Source of the DNA: an uncultured Planctomycetota bacterium
Lineage (GTDB): Bacteria > Planctomycetota > Phycisphaerae > UBA1845 > UTPLA1
Assembly: GCA_900696465.1 (NCBI GenBank)
Contig: CAADGE010000022.1
Coordinates: 186,001 to 250,000, forward strand
DNA: 64,000 nucleotides
Reading direction: 5' to 3'
Both the position numbers and the translations under genes were made by a program. Shown one piece after another: positions 44,030-49,525 of the stretch. Position 1 is the first letter of the stretch, and every line of letters begins with the position of its first letter. The notes under the pieces are model-generated. The model ran no database searches and was not told the origin of the DNA. It saw only the letters and a program-made list of their open reading frames with translations.

Positions 44030-44605
44030 GTGCCGACGTTCGGGTCGTGGGCCTGTTTCCACGCCACGGCCGCTGCGGCTGGACGACGAACCTTGCCATT
44101 TATCAAGCTGCTGATTCTTGACGTCGACGGGGTCCTGACCGGCGGCGAACTGCCCTACGATGCGGGCGGCAATTCCTTTAAGTCGTTTCACGTGCAGGAC
44201 GGCGGCGCGGTGCGGCTCTGGCAGAATTCCGGCGGTCTTGTCGCCGTCATCAGCGGCCGATTATCGCCCGCGGTGGAGGCCCGGGCCCGTGAGCTTGGGA
44301 TTGAGCATGTGGCCCAGGGCGTGACCGACAAACAACCGGCGTATGAGACTTTTCTCCAGCGTGCAGGTGTGACAGACCCCGAAACCAGCGTCGTGGGTGA
44401 CGACTTTCTCGACATCCCGCTGATGCGGCGCTGCGGCTATTCCATCGCGGTTGCGAACGCCCTGCCGCTGGTCAAGCGGTCGGCGCGCTACGTCACTCGA
44501 CGGCGCGGAGGGCAGGGGGCGATTGCCGAGGCCGTGGAACGATTGATGCGATTGAACGGAACCTGGTCGGACGCGGTTCGCAAATGGACTTCAAACCCGC
44601 GCTGA
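44030..44605 (+). CDS. kdsC: KdsC-like 3-deoxy-manno-octulosonate-8-phosphate phosphatase
   Basis: A HAD-superfamily (C0 subtype) phosphatase that releases Kdo from Kdo-8-phosphate for LPS core synthesis. It has LILDVDGVLTGGEL with the nucleophile and general acid Asp pair, 'VISGRLSPAVEARARELGIEHV' (opening), 'KQPAYETFL' and GDDFLDIPLMRRCGYSIAVANA, closely matching KdsC. Length is 191 residues from the GTG at 44030; a TTG at 44093 (LPFIKLL) would give a family-typical 170 and is a good alternative. The next gene, 25 bases downstream, encodes an LptC/LptA-like protein, which mirrors the kdsC-lptC-lptA order in enterobacteria and supports the assignment. Confidence 0.85.
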   Translation: MPTFGSWACFHATAAAAGRRTLPFIKLLILDVDGVLTGGELPYDAGGNSFKSFHVQDGGAVRLWQNSGGLVAVISGRLSPAVEARARELGIEHVAQGVTDKQPAYETFLQRAGVTDPETSVVGDDFLDIPLMRRCGYSIAVANALPLVKRSARYVTRRRGGQGAIAEAVERLMRLNGTWSDAVRKWTSNPR

Positions 44606-44630: not shown

Positions 44631-47600
44631 ATGATCCGTATCACGGATGGTTTCACGAAGAAACTTGTGCTGATGGGTGTGACGTTCCTCATGGCCGTCG
44701 GCGCCTATCTGGTCTTCACGCGCGAAGACCAGGCGACGCGCGTTGCGCCGAAGCAGGATGCCACCGAGGTCGTCCGCCGATTCGTCACCCGACCGGTCAC
44801 GTCGCAGCCGGTCGTTCAGAGCTTCACCGAGGCCGGTCTGAATTTCAGCCCCGGCGATCAGACCCGCGTGAAGATCTACGACGAGATCACCGGCCGGCTC
44901 AAGTACATCTTCGAGGCCAAGAGCTGGGAACCGGTTTCGGAATCGGACTATCGCCTGAAAGACCTGTCCATCCAGATTTACATGCCCCGCGGCGAGATCA
45001 CATACATTAACGCGGATGAGGCCGAGGTGACGCTTGCCCGGAAGACCGGCTCGCGCGTTGATCCCAAGCGCGGTCGCCTGTGGGGCAATGTCACCGTGAC
45101 GATCGATCGCACGACCGCCAAGTGGCGTGAGGAAAATCCCGAACTTGCTGAGCGCTACGCACACGCGGACGACCTGATTCACATCCATCTGCCGGAGGCC
45201 CGTTTCGACATGGACCGTGCCGAGCTGAAGGCCGACGGCGATGTGCTGGTGGACAGCGTCGAGGCCCGCATCGAGAAATGCCGCGGGCTTCTCGTACAGT
45301 GGGACCAGGTGGACAATCGGATTGATCTGCTCCGCTTCGAGCACGGCGGACGAATGATGCTGCGACGCGGAGGGCGCATGGTGGATTTTGCCATGCCCGG
45401 CACGGTGCGAGAAAGCCGGTCCGAGAGTGCGAAAGCAGCCGCATCCGGGGCACCGGGTTTTGCGCCAAAAGCCCAGGCGATGAAGCCGCTCTCCATCGAT
45501 GCGATCTCCACGGCTGAAGCGGCGGCGGAGATTCGACTGGAAGGCGGGCTGGTTTCCGCGAACCAGCCGAAGTCGATCAGCACCGCGGCGCGCACTACTC
45601 CATCGACCGAGCGAACGGTCTCATCCACTGAGCCCAACCAGCTTCGAAGCGAGAAAGAGCTGGCCAGCGCCGTCGGTGAGCTGAAGCGCGAGGCCCGATC
45701 GGCGACCTCCGGTGAACCCAGGGCACAGTCTCTTGTGGACGACGCCCTTGCCCGATCACACGGCCGTGTGCATACATATCGCGCCGTTTTTGAGAATCAG
45801 GTCGTGGTCGAGCAACTCGACGGACTTCGAACCATCGGCAAGGTCGAGGCCGATCAGTTGGAGGTCAACTTCGATTTCGGCAAGAAACAGCGCGGCATGG
45901 CCTCCGGCAGATCGCCCTCGCAGGATGAGAAGCCCGAGGGCGCGCCGACGGACCACTCCGTGACTGCGAATGCTTCGCAGGTTGATCCCTCGAAGGCGGC
46001 AGGCGGTCGGCCCGCGGCGTTAACGCCGTCACCTGCTCCGTCTCTGGCGGACGATCCCACGAAGCTGGTGCTCACCTGGAACGGTCCGCTCGAGATGCGC
46101 CCGATCTGGTCCGCAGGCGGAGAGCCCCCGACAGGCGAGCGATTCGACGTCGTCGCCATCGGCAACCCGGTACGGCTCATGAGCGCGCAAGGCACGCAGA
46201 GCAGTCCGGGCAAGGTGGCTCGTGCGGCCTGCGATCAGTTGGTGTATCGCCACGAACGCAGACAGGCGTGGATGGCCGGACGGGACGATCGACCGGTGCA
46301 GATTCACGTGGACGACTCCGGTCGTCTCGTCGGCCGCGAGGTCTTCTTCGATCAGCAGCGCGGGCTCGGGCGCGTCGAGGGGCCGGGCACGATGTCTGAT
46401 GACCGCGGTTCGGATTCCGACGTCGGGTCGGATTCGACGATCTTCGCGGCGACTTCCGATCTGGTATCAAAGGCATCGGGCGAAGATGGCTCCGTCCGAA
46501 ATCGCGACCCGGTGCTGATCAAGTGGTCGCGCGGAGTGGACTTCGAGCTGGGCTCTCGCCGCGTCGAAGCGCTGAATGCCGCTACGGGAATGCGGGAAGA
46601 GAAGAACAAGGAGTTTCTCCGTCGGGCCTGGTTCCACGGTGATGTGAGCATTCGACAGGGGGATGAACGACTCGTCGGCGACGAGGTTGCGGTCACCTTC
46701 GGCTCGCCTCGATCCGGTGAGGACGTCGCCGATCATATTTCGCACCTGAGTATGAGCGGTAAGGTTCGCCTGGAACGCGGCGACGACGTCCTGGCCGGTG
46801 AGCGGCTCGATGTACAGATGACCGTCACGTCGGACGGTAAAAACCTGCCGAAAGTCGTGGACGCCGCAGGTGATGTGTTGGCCCGGCAGGCGGATCGGGA
46901 AATCCGCGCGGAGGAGATGCACGTTGAGATGACGACCATCATGGGCGAGCCGCGACCATCGCCGGATGGAACGACGATGCTTCCGGGACGTTCGCGCGTC
47001 GGCATCGATCGCATGGATGCCCGTGGTGACGTGCTCGTGCGCGACCCTTCGCAGAATCTCAAGATCAGCCGGGCCGAATCACTGGTTGCCTCCATGCGCA
47101 ACGGCAATGAACTTGTGCGGGCGACGATCCTGGGCAAGTCGCCGGAGGGCAGGGCTCGCGCGCGATTCGGTGATGTTGCCATGCACGGTCACCGTATTGA
47201 GATCGACATGGACGAGCAGGCCATCGAGGTGCCCGGTCCCGGTGTGGCTTTTTCACGTACGACTGAAGACTTCGGCGGCCGCAAACTCAGCGAGCCCACA
47301 ATCGTGCGCACAACATGGCGGGATCGCATGGAGTTTCACCTGGCGAGGAACTACGGCGTCTTCCTGGGAGGCGTGGTCAGCCGCACGGACAATTTCTCCC
47401 TGACCAGCAGCAAGCTGACCGTGCGTTTCGCAAAGGCGCCGCCGGCAGCGCCGCGGTCAAAATCGAGGGAGTTTTCCCCCCTACGTCTGATTGCCGCCAC
47501 TCGCGAGGAGGCGGCCTACGTGGACGCTATTGCATCGCCGAGTGTGGTGGCGGCTTACACGACGATCCGCCTTCTCTGGGGCATCCCGCAGGGCCGGCTT

Positions 47601-48497
47601 CTTGGCAGATTTGCCGGTCTGGGTGACGAGCGCAAAGGTCGTGACTCGATTGCGTACGCCTCGATCAGCGGGGAGCGCAAGCAGCCGGTCTATCTGGTTG
47701 CCGAGGGCAATGCCGAGGCGCTCAGTACAGAGCACGGACCACGCACGCGTCTCGGCACGCGCGGGCGACTGCTCTCGCGCATGCGCATCGCGGCCGACCA
47801 GATTGCCGTGGACCTTTCCGCGCAGCAGATGAACATTCCCTGTAAAGGGTCGCTGCTCATCGAGGATTACCAGTTTGACCCGCGCGAGCGAAAGGCCGAA
47901 TCCATGGCGTCCAGCGCCGCGGGTTCTCCGATGATGAGCAGTCTGCGCAGCGAAGGGCCCAGCCAGACGGCCGTCACCTGGACCAACTCGATGGATTACT
48001 TCGTGGATCGTAATCTCGTCGTCTTTGATCGAGACGTCACCATGGCCCATCGCAGCGGACGCGAGATGGTCATGCAGGGTGAACTGGCCACGGCGATGGG
48101 TATCGATCCCGACCAGATGCTTCGCCTCGGTAAGGGCCGTATCGCTACGCTTCGCGCGGGCAACCTGCTGCTGGAATTCAAGACCCCGCGCAGCCAGCGC
48201 GGCAAGGAGCGCGGTGCCGAGGACACCATGCGCGCCACCGATCTTCAGCGGCTCATTGCCAAGGGCTCGGTCTTCATGCGCGAAGACACACGCAGCTTGA
48301 CCGGCGAGCATTTGCAGTACATGGCCGAATCCGGCGAAGTGCGCGTCGAAGGCGGGCCGGGTTTTGAAGCGACCATCATGGAGGAAGAAGAGACTGCCGG
48401 CCGCTTCATGATGTGGCGGGGGCCGGTACTCACGTGGGATCGCATCACCGGTCGAATCGAGGCACCCAAGGCGGCGGTGCGCACGAGTCGTCGCTGA
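44631..48497 (+). CDS. Giant LptC/LptA-like LPS-transport bridge protein
   Basis: A 1288-residue protein with one N-terminal transmembrane helix (11-29, KLVLMGVTFLMAVGAYLVF) and a long periplasmic part. The first 240 residues resemble LptC ('RLKYIFEAKSWEPVSESDYRL', 'LSIQIYMPRGEITYINADEAE' openings). Beyond them at least six OstA/LptA-type beta units recur with patterns such as 'G.V.V......I.AD.L.V......I' (for example 'HGDVSIRQGDERLVGDEV', 'MSGKVRLERGDDVLAGERL', 'ARGDVLVRDPSQNLKISRAE' and 'AKGSVFMREDTRSLTGEHL'). Two low-complexity linkers (about 260-390 and 425-480) interrupt them. LptC and LptA together are about 380 residues, so this could form a single-chain bridge from inner to outer membrane. 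Placement directly after kdsC fits. Homology is by eye and needs structure prediction. Confidence 0.72.
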   Translation: MIRITDGFTKKLVLMGVTFLMAVGAYLVFTREDQATRVAPKQDATEVVRRFVTRPVTSQPVVQSFTEAGLNFSPGDQTRVKIYDEITGRLKYIFEAKSWEPVSESDYRLKDLSIQIYMPRGEITYINADEAEVTLARKTGSRVDPKRGRLWGNVTVTIDRTTAKWREENPELAERYAHADDLIHIHLPEARFDMDRAELKADGDVLVDSVEARIEKCRGLLVQWDQVDNRIDLLRFEHGGRMMLRRGGRMVDFAMPGTVRESRSESAKAAASGAPGFAPKAQAMKPLSIDAISTAEAAAEIRLEGGLVSANQPKSISTAARTTPSTERTVSSTEPNQLRSEKELASAVGELKREARSATSGEPRAQSLVDDALARSHGRVHTYRAVFENQVVVEQLDGLRTIGKVEADQLEVNFDFGKKQRGMASGRSPSQDEKPEGAPTDHSVTANASQVDPSKAAGGRPAALTPSPAPSLADDPTKLVLTWNGPLEMRPIWSAGGEPPTGERFDVVAIGNPVRLMSAQGTQSSPGKVARAACDQLVYRHERRQAWMAGRDDRPVQIHVDDSGRLVGREVFFDQQRGLGRVEGPGTMSDDRGSDSDVGSDSTIFAATSDLVSKASGEDGSVRNRDPVLIKWSRGVDFELGSRRVEALNAATGMREEKNKEFLRRAWFHGDVSIRQGDERLVGDEVAVTFGSPRSGEDVADHISHLSMSGKVRLERGDDVLAGERLDVQMTVTSDGKNLPKVVDAAGDVLARQADREIRAEEMHVEMTTIMGEPRPSPDGTTMLPGRSRVGIDRMDARGDVLVRDPSQNLKISRAESLVASMRNGNELVRATILGKSPEGRARARFGDVAMHGHRIEIDMDEQAIEVPGPGVAFSRTTEDFGGRKLSEPTIVRTTWRDRMEFHLARNYGVFLGGVVSRTDNFSLTSSKLTVRFAKAPPAAPRSKSREFSPLRLIAATREEAAYVDAIASPSVVAAYTTIRLLWGIPQGRLLGRFAGLGDERKGRDSIAYASISGERKQPVYLVAEGNAEALSTEHGPRTRLGTRGRLLSRMRIAADQIAVDLSAQQMNIPCKGSLLIEDYQFDPRERKAESMASSAAGSPMMSSLRSEGPSQTAVTWTNSMDYFVDRNLVVFDRDVTMAHRSGREMVMQGELATAMGIDPDQMLRLGKGRIATLRAGNLLLEFKTPRSQRGKERGAEDTMRATDLQRLIAKGSVFMREDTRSLTGEHLQYMAESGEVRVEGGPGFEATIMEEEETAGRFMMWRGPVLTWDRITGRIEAPKAAVRTSRR

Positions 48498-48900
48498 CAC
48501 GTCAACAGGCGAGCGGCGACTCGGCTGGAGGTCGGCGCACACGCTTCAAAAAACTCCGCGCCGGGACTTGCCTTTGCGGTCCTCGGGGGAAGAATCGTAC
48601 GAGAGGCCTGAGCCGGACCGGGAAGTCGCCGGGCACCAACCGATTGCGTGTGCCGCTGGATTCTAAGTACGGCGACTTTCAGAACGGTCCGGCACCTGTC
48701 GGCAGCATCGCCTCTGGCGATGCTGAGGGCAACGGGCACTGCGGCGTTCTCGTTCGAAGCGCCGCAACCATGAGCGCGGAACTCGCACTTCGCAAGCTCA
48801 ATGTGTCCTCTTCATTCAGCGCTCGTCACAGCCGAACAGCGGCTGCTGCGGCGCGTTATTCGAGATCGAAGCGGAGCGGGTAAGCATGAAGCGGCGGCGG

Positions 48901-49446
48901 TCTTGCACCACGCCTGCGCGAAGTCTGCATGCCGCGAGAGGATGATGATGCAATTCGGCAAACTTCATCATGTGCAACGGATCGGTGGGGGGCGCAGTTG
49001 TTGGGCTTCTTTCCTCCGATCGGGTGGTCGCGAGATGTGGCGGCGGATCGGTGCGGTTCGTGTTGTGGAGTGGGGATCGACCCGCACCAGCCGTAAACAT
49101 CTCGCGACCCCTGGCAGGAGGGCGATCATGAACAGGCAGGGAGGGGAGCCAGCGTGCAACGGCGGCGGGAGCGAGGGGTACAGGGGGGCTCCCGCCGCCC
49201 GGAGATACCGGCGCGGGGCGTCCGGAGAAAACGCAACCGGCGGTGAAAGAAGCCGGCCGGCGTCGAAGCGCGACCTGACAATGGCTCGCCCGCGCTTCGA
49301 ATGAGTCGGCATTCGGCGCTTTCCGCGAGGGGCGAAGGCCGGTTGCGATAACGTGAAGCCGCGTTTGACTTCGGGGAGAGGCAACGCGACTTCACCGGGC
49401 AGGCCGTGGTGGAACGCGGGAGTTCACCACGGCCGCCGCTATTTTT
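48901..49446 (+). ncRNA. Candidate structured non-coding RNA ending at a terminator
   Basis: No plausible protein lies between 48498 and 49525. On the plus strand successive perfect stems occur: ATGATGA/TCATCAT (48942-48971), GATCGG/CCGATC (48981-49021), a 13-pair closing stem GGTCGCGAGATGT/ACATCTCGCGACC (49026-49109) around a 58-base domain with an inner GGTGCGG/CCGCACC helix, a 12-pair stem (49161-49172 with 49188-49199), TCGAAGCGCG/CGCGCTTCGA (49263-49300), GAAG-GCGTT/AACGC-CTTC (49355-49393) and the terminator-like stem at 49402. Their density exceeds that of nearby coding DNA. RNase P, tmRNA, SRP and 6S motifs were looked for and not found. It may be an independent RNA or the 3' end of the preceding transcript; the left boundary is uncertain. 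Confidence 0.45.
49402..49446 (+). terminator. Rho-independent-type terminator
   Basis: GGCCGTGGTG-G-AAC (49402-49415) pairs with GTT-CACCACGGCC (49422-49434) around a six-base loop: 13 pairs with one bulged G. TTTTT follows at 49442-49446 after seven bases, slightly further than in classic terminators. The polarity of the U-tract fits a plus-strand transcript coming from the left. Confidence 0.55.
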
Positions 49447-49525
49447 ACGAAACGTAGCGTGTTCGTTTTTACACGCTGCAAGATTCATGCGTTGACGAAT
49501 CGATTGGGCTGGACGATCTGCCGAG

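Follow-up and report, generated by a model that had tools for sequence, protein, structure and literature searches.

In Escherichia coli, the genes for LptC and LptA, the separate proteins that bridge the periplasm in lipopolysaccharide (LPS) transport, follow the phosphatase gene in the order kdsC-lptC-lptA. In the genome of an uncultured planctomycete, a stretch of 64,000 nucleotides of which (the window) was analyzed here, the gene directly 3' of kdsC encodes a single protein of 1288 amino acids, which raises the question of whether one chain does the work of both. Architecture and gene content support the interpretation that it does, and we consider it quite probable that the product of this gene is a covalently continuous Lpt bridge that replaces separate LptC and LptA.

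The long gene downstream of kdsC and its distribution

The open reading frame begins with ATG and coincides exactly with the 1288-residue protein that an earlier, sequence-only reading of the window had placed right after kdsC (Table 1). Homology in the KdsC protein begins near position 44102, so that the actual start of kdsC is perhaps downstream of 44030. The same reading had likened the order of kdsC and an lptC-like gene to that of proteobacteria, and this order is the same as in E. coli and recurs in the relatives: kdsC is located upstream of the long gene, on the same strand, in 38 of the 40 distinct loci of the order (39 of the 41 fetched loci, of which L053 and L054 represent one contig; 37 of 39 without the split gene in L064). 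Among the fetched loci, only L079 and L080, from genomes of one genus (G023 and G043), showed no kdsC beside the long gene. lptB does not follow the long gene and is on another contig. Approximately 1 kb 3' of the long gene (48498-49525) is without a recognised gene; neither of the two small ORFs in this interval (156 and 167 amino acids) matched a Pfam or NCBIfam family.

Rather than being a peculiarity of the source genome, the long chain is the norm in the order. Of 101 genomes searched (the source genome plus others from its genus, family and order), 94 carry it; among those with at least 90% completeness and at most 5% contamination, the count is 61 of 63. The 40 chains that were aligned are 1052-1306 amino acids long. 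One locus (L064:4265-7965, genome G015) has a frameshift in the variable linker, at approximately residues 425-475, that breaks the gene into frames of 502 and 731 amino acids; given that G007, a genome of the same genus, has an intact long frame, the split is likely an assembly error. The nearest named relative, and the only one recovered by the scan of genome contigs, is 'Planctomycetota bacterium isolate PLA2' (L053), with 66% identity in the best segment, and a scan of viral contigs yielded no relative of the protein. For a survey of the class, the Pfam OstA model PF03968 alone is too weak, and the order's own profile performs better. Across the phylum, this profile matches 81 of 195 genomes at E 0.001, where an unmatched genome may merely be too diverged for the profile; within the same class, the matches are mostly in frames of about 870-1217 amino acids.

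Table 1. Positions in the window of kdsC, the long gene and the predicted parts of its product (residue numbers refer to the 1288-residue protein unless the row is that of kdsC)
Feature	Position	Strand	Evidence
kdsC (KDO 8-phosphate phosphatase)	44030..44605	+	TIGR01670, 151.4 bits (cut-off 106.95), residues 25-176
Predicted single-chain LptC-LptA bridge gene, 1288 aa	44631..48497	+	Pfam OstA match; conservation across the order; codon-position pattern
N-terminal membrane anchor, ~residues 10-31	44658..44723	+	19-residue hydropathy up to 2.18
LptC-type domain, ~residues 60-262	44808..45416	+	Score 57.1, E 1.3e-8, to the LptC domain of the 635-720 aa protein (f45)
Variable linker, probably disordered, residues 263-375	45417..45755	+	Alignment occupancy 0.36-0.78 in most 20-residue blocks
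OstA/LptA-type module 1, residues 376-592, with variable loop ~421-475	45756..46406	+	Score 32.3 to an OstA module
OstA/LptA-type module 2, residues 625-742	46503..46856	+	Pfam LptD_N at 665-691 and 706-731; score 42.4 to an OstA module
OstA/LptA-type module 3, residues 743-880 (740-880 in the profile comparison)	46857..47270	+	Pfam LptD_N at 745-863; score 32.4 to an OstA module
OstA/LptA-type module 4, residues 885-1090, with variable loop ~941-1000	47283..47900	+	Score 64.3, E 4.8e-10, to an OstA module
OstA/LptA-type module 5, C-terminal, residues 1105-1288	47943..48494	+	Score 74.1, E 3.9e-12, to an OstA module

Domain composition of the chain

The hydrophobic segment near the N-terminus is the only one in the 1288-residue protein, and 37 of the 40 relatives have a similar segment in a similar place. 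The Pfam family LptD_N/OstA (PF03968) is matched in more than one stretch of the protein, with 41.2 bits against a cut-off of 20.4, and its model matches 33 of the 40 relatives at E 0.01. The match to Pfam LptC (PF06835; residues 80-135), at 13.3 bits, is below the cut-off of 21 and is a hint only; at E 0.01, this model matches 6 of the 40 relatives (best E 3.7e-5). The match to the LptA equivalog TIGR03002, 31.6 bits, is likewise below its cut-off (71.7). By these models, the protein is of the OstA type, yet it is no classical short LptA. Comparison of the 40-sequence profile with itself revealed internal repeats (E 1.5e-17 for residues 121-1072 against 511-1281, with further off-diagonal matches), and comparison with solved structures identified N-terminal domains of LptD (5iv9, E 5.5e-5) and LptA (8onu, E 0.01). 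Single sequences of E. coli LptA and LptC were also used as hhalign queries and discarded, being too distant to yield significant matches.

A shorter protein found elsewhere in the Planctomycetota provides a closer reference. In three families (denoted f45, f63 and f67), a single chain of 635-720 amino acids carries a TM anchor together with LptC and OstA modules. In all 11 proteins tested, both Pfam models score over their cut-offs (LptC, 40.6-72.6 bits against 21; OstA, 72.3-111.2 bits for the whole protein against 20.4), so that, by curated models, a fused LptC-LptA protein does exist; in each of the 11 loci, kdsC is found no more than about 0.6 kb upstream of the gene. The two forms thus have in common the anchor, the combination of LptC and OstA parts in one chain and the nearby kdsC, whereas the shorter form is about half as long, exceeds both Pfam cut-offs and, as judged by profile comparison, contains three OstA modules. 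Many of the genomes with the shorter fused protein also show a separate LptD-sized frame (approximately 920-970 amino acids). Short OstA-type proteins were also detected in further families of the phylum (197 and 369 amino acids; L116 from genome G130 and L119 from genome G103), indicating that split or shorter arrangements exist there.

Segments of the 40-sequence profile, with borders set by eye ahead of the comparison, were scored against the LptC domain and each of the three OstA modules of the shorter protein. Residues 60-262 score 57.1 with the LptC domain of f45 and at most 21.9 with the f45 OstA modules, and the five OstA-type segments, conversely, score at most 16.2 with LptC. In the controls (25 column shuffles per segment and reversed profiles), all scores were 24.5 or lower; for the LptC segment, the shuffled maximum was 24.5 and the reversed one 12.1, and for the OstA comparisons the control maximum was 19.4. 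Furthermore, module 1 matches module 5 with an E-value of 3.3e-10. By these scores, the N-terminal domain is closer to verified LptC domains than to OstA modules, and the chain consists of one LptC-type part followed by about five OstA-type parts, in this order; 'about five' is the honest number because modules 2 and 3 can be counted as one long unit. The LptC-like N-terminal part and the several OstA-type units proposed in the sequence-only reading were thus both recovered.

Structure prediction agrees weakly with an LptC-type N-terminal domain. The AlphaFold2 model of residues 58-262 (pLDDT 48.2) is nearly all beta. A Foldseek search with this model returned nothing significant at E 0.001; with the VIA aligner, the same low-confidence model placed four LptC chains on top, with Z of 6.7, 6.3, 6.1 and 5.4, which we read as agreement with LptC and no more, given that values below 8 may merely reflect a common arrangement. 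For residues 79-1278, the AlphaFold2 model obtained from a two-sequence alignment had a mean pLDDT of 29.6 and was not used, so that the number of modules and the continuity of the groove rest on sequence.

With regard to that continuity, the modules could also be real but joined like beads on a string by flexible linkers, with no single rigid groove, and with transport through parallel chains or through pairing between copies. Variable stretches of low occupancy are indeed found at residues 263-375, 421-475, 593-620 and 941-1000, and the first of these, a linker of approximately 110 residues that separates the LptC-type domain from the first OstA module, is a place where the sheet is perhaps discontinuous; in E. 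coli, moreover, a stable LptA multimer is not strictly required (PMC5575297). However, the stretches 421-475 and 941-1000 fall inside modules and resemble surface loops, residues 625-940 run on without a break, and the junctions between modules are short in the f45 version. We consider the beads-on-a-string arrangement rather unlikely, and prefer the continuous bridge.

Partner genes and the search for separate LptA and LptC

A bridge of this kind would be expected to act with LptB, LptF, LptG and LptD, and these are encoded elsewhere in the source genome. lptB scores 318.5 bits, over the cut-off, and lptF and lptG adjoin each other. lptD is over the cut-off in the genome search and slightly under it when the whole protein is scored (19.0 against 22.4 bits). 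The LptF-like protein (545 amino acids; L021:4861-6498, contig C5) matches the LptF/LptG model in two stretches, positions 2-130 and 243-350, which are approximately 180 residues further apart than in the model; its periplasmic part thus seems enlarged, too. LptD has 1047 amino acids (L018:5205-8348, contig C40), and the match to the LptD model starts at residue 553, leaving a long N-terminal region before the barrel.

Separate genes for the two bridge proteins were not detected. In the source genome (4.14 Mb, 96.8% complete), no separate LptC was matched at E 0.001, and no OstA-type gene was identified other than the long gene and the LptD region; a weak OstA match on contig C29 was rejected as false because the frame is GAPDH-like. 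Could the chain, then, be an extended LptC that covers only part of the periplasm, with a separate LptA, too diverged or hidden in an assembly gap, completing the path? The genome is a draft of 48 contigs, short OstA proteins are easily missed, and the frames of 197 and 369 amino acids mentioned above do occur in some other Planctomycetota. Against this, across 41 genomes of the order, there is no over-cut-off OstA match in a frame shorter than 600 amino acids: the OstA matches fall in the long chain, in frames the size of LptD, in the split G015 gene and in one frame truncated at a contig end. A search of the source genome with the order's own profile returns nothing besides the 1288-residue protein up to E 10, and an assembly gap common to all genomes is unlikely. 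An extended LptC with a hidden partner is, in our judgment, improbable. The sequence-only reading envisaged a single-chain, multi-module path for LPS that would replace oligomerised LptA and could suit a widened periplasm. This view is partly supported, namely with respect to the LptC-type and multi-OstA chain, the order of kdsC and the lptC-like gene and the lack of a detectable separate lptA or lptC.

The cargo might still be another lipid, such as phospholipid, which has been suggested for proteins like TamB and YhdP, because function is deduced here from family and gene neighborhood only. However, the chain belongs to the LptA/LptC/LptD_N families and is paired with kdsC, a gene of Kdo synthesis, in a genome that encodes, in addition to LptB, LptF/G and LptD, LpxC (291 bits) and a Kdo transferase domain (184.5 bits). 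With lpxC, the Kdo transferase and kdsC, the organism is predicted from its gene content to make Kdo-lipid A, and a bridge dedicated to a different lipid seems very improbable. Finally, high-GC genomes do carry long spurious frames, several of which overlap this gene on the opposite strand, but both chance and an assembly fusion can practically be dismissed as the origin of the frame, as independent genomes each contain it undivided and composed of the same parts, and the differences from the closest relative (0.235, 0.179 and 0.518 per codon at positions 1, 2 and 3, respectively) are concentrated at position 3, which indicates a real gene under coding constraint.

A tentative model and its relation to known transport systems

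In the model that we propose, the N-terminal helix would anchor the chain in the inner membrane, the LptC-type domain would receive LPS from the LptB2FG transporter, and about five LptA-type beta modules of the same chain would hand it over to outer-membrane LptD at its N-terminal domain. The model presumes that the modules adopt the predicted folds, that their grooves would form one continuous path and that the ends of the chain would dock to LptF and LptD. As the chain would stand in for separate LptC and LptA, the number of bridge units would be set by the gene and not by oligomerisation of LptA. We further suggest, with considerable reservation, that the chain might act as a molecular ruler, in which the module count (three LptA-type units in one group of families, as opposed to about five in the present order) is adjusted to periplasm width, and the constant stoichiometry of a single chain dispenses with assembly and disassembly of LptA. 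LptC with one LptA and the LptF/G and LptD parts measures approximately 16 nm (PMC5575297), that is, approximately 4 nm per unit; at this rate, as an estimate, the six-unit chain with two end units would extend to roughly 32 nm and the version with three OstA modules to 24 nm. The E. coli periplasm is 21 nm wide, the number of LptA units per bridge has not been determined experimentally, and the stability of the bridge is debated (PMC5575297). If the whole path is fused with a fixed number of modules, a permanent continuous bridge can suffice, and the length of the bridge can be counted from the gene and set against periplasm widths that have been measured. Annotators, for their part, gain a way of recognising the missing lptA and lptC of the Planctomycetota.

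The arrangement appears, from its architecture and gene content, to be a genuine and new form of the Lpt system. A search of the open-access literature, mostly at the level of titles and abstracts, turned up no account of a bridge in which LptC and LptA are fused or form a single chain, and an earlier description is possible. In a previous survey, LptD and BamA were found in the searched planctomycete genomes, and the text is without LptA and LptC (Speth et al. 2012; PMC3422733).

Compared with the LptB2FGC-A-DE bridge of E. coli, the planctomycete system shares, in addition to the gene order described above, the succession of inner-membrane anchor, LptC-type part and OstA-type parts, as well as the same partner genes. 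It differs in having one polypeptide instead of two, with about five OstA-type modules in place of a self-associating single-module LptA, and in the location of lptB outside the cluster; the sequences are very distant. With the N-terminal domain of LptD, the chain shares membership in the OstA family (PF03968), and its best matches among solved structures are such domains; unlike LptD, which is encoded separately in the same genome, it is without an outer-membrane barrel. The idea of a single polypeptide that spans the periplasm for lipid transport has precedents in LetB of the LetAB system and in the long MlaD of Veillonella, for both of which it has been proposed (PMC8727689, PMC10665443), and LetAB has been explicitly contrasted with Lpt, the bridge of which consists of small separate proteins (PMC8727689). 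LetB and MlaD, however, are MCE-domain phospholipid proteins, with a fold unrelated to that predicted for the chain described here.
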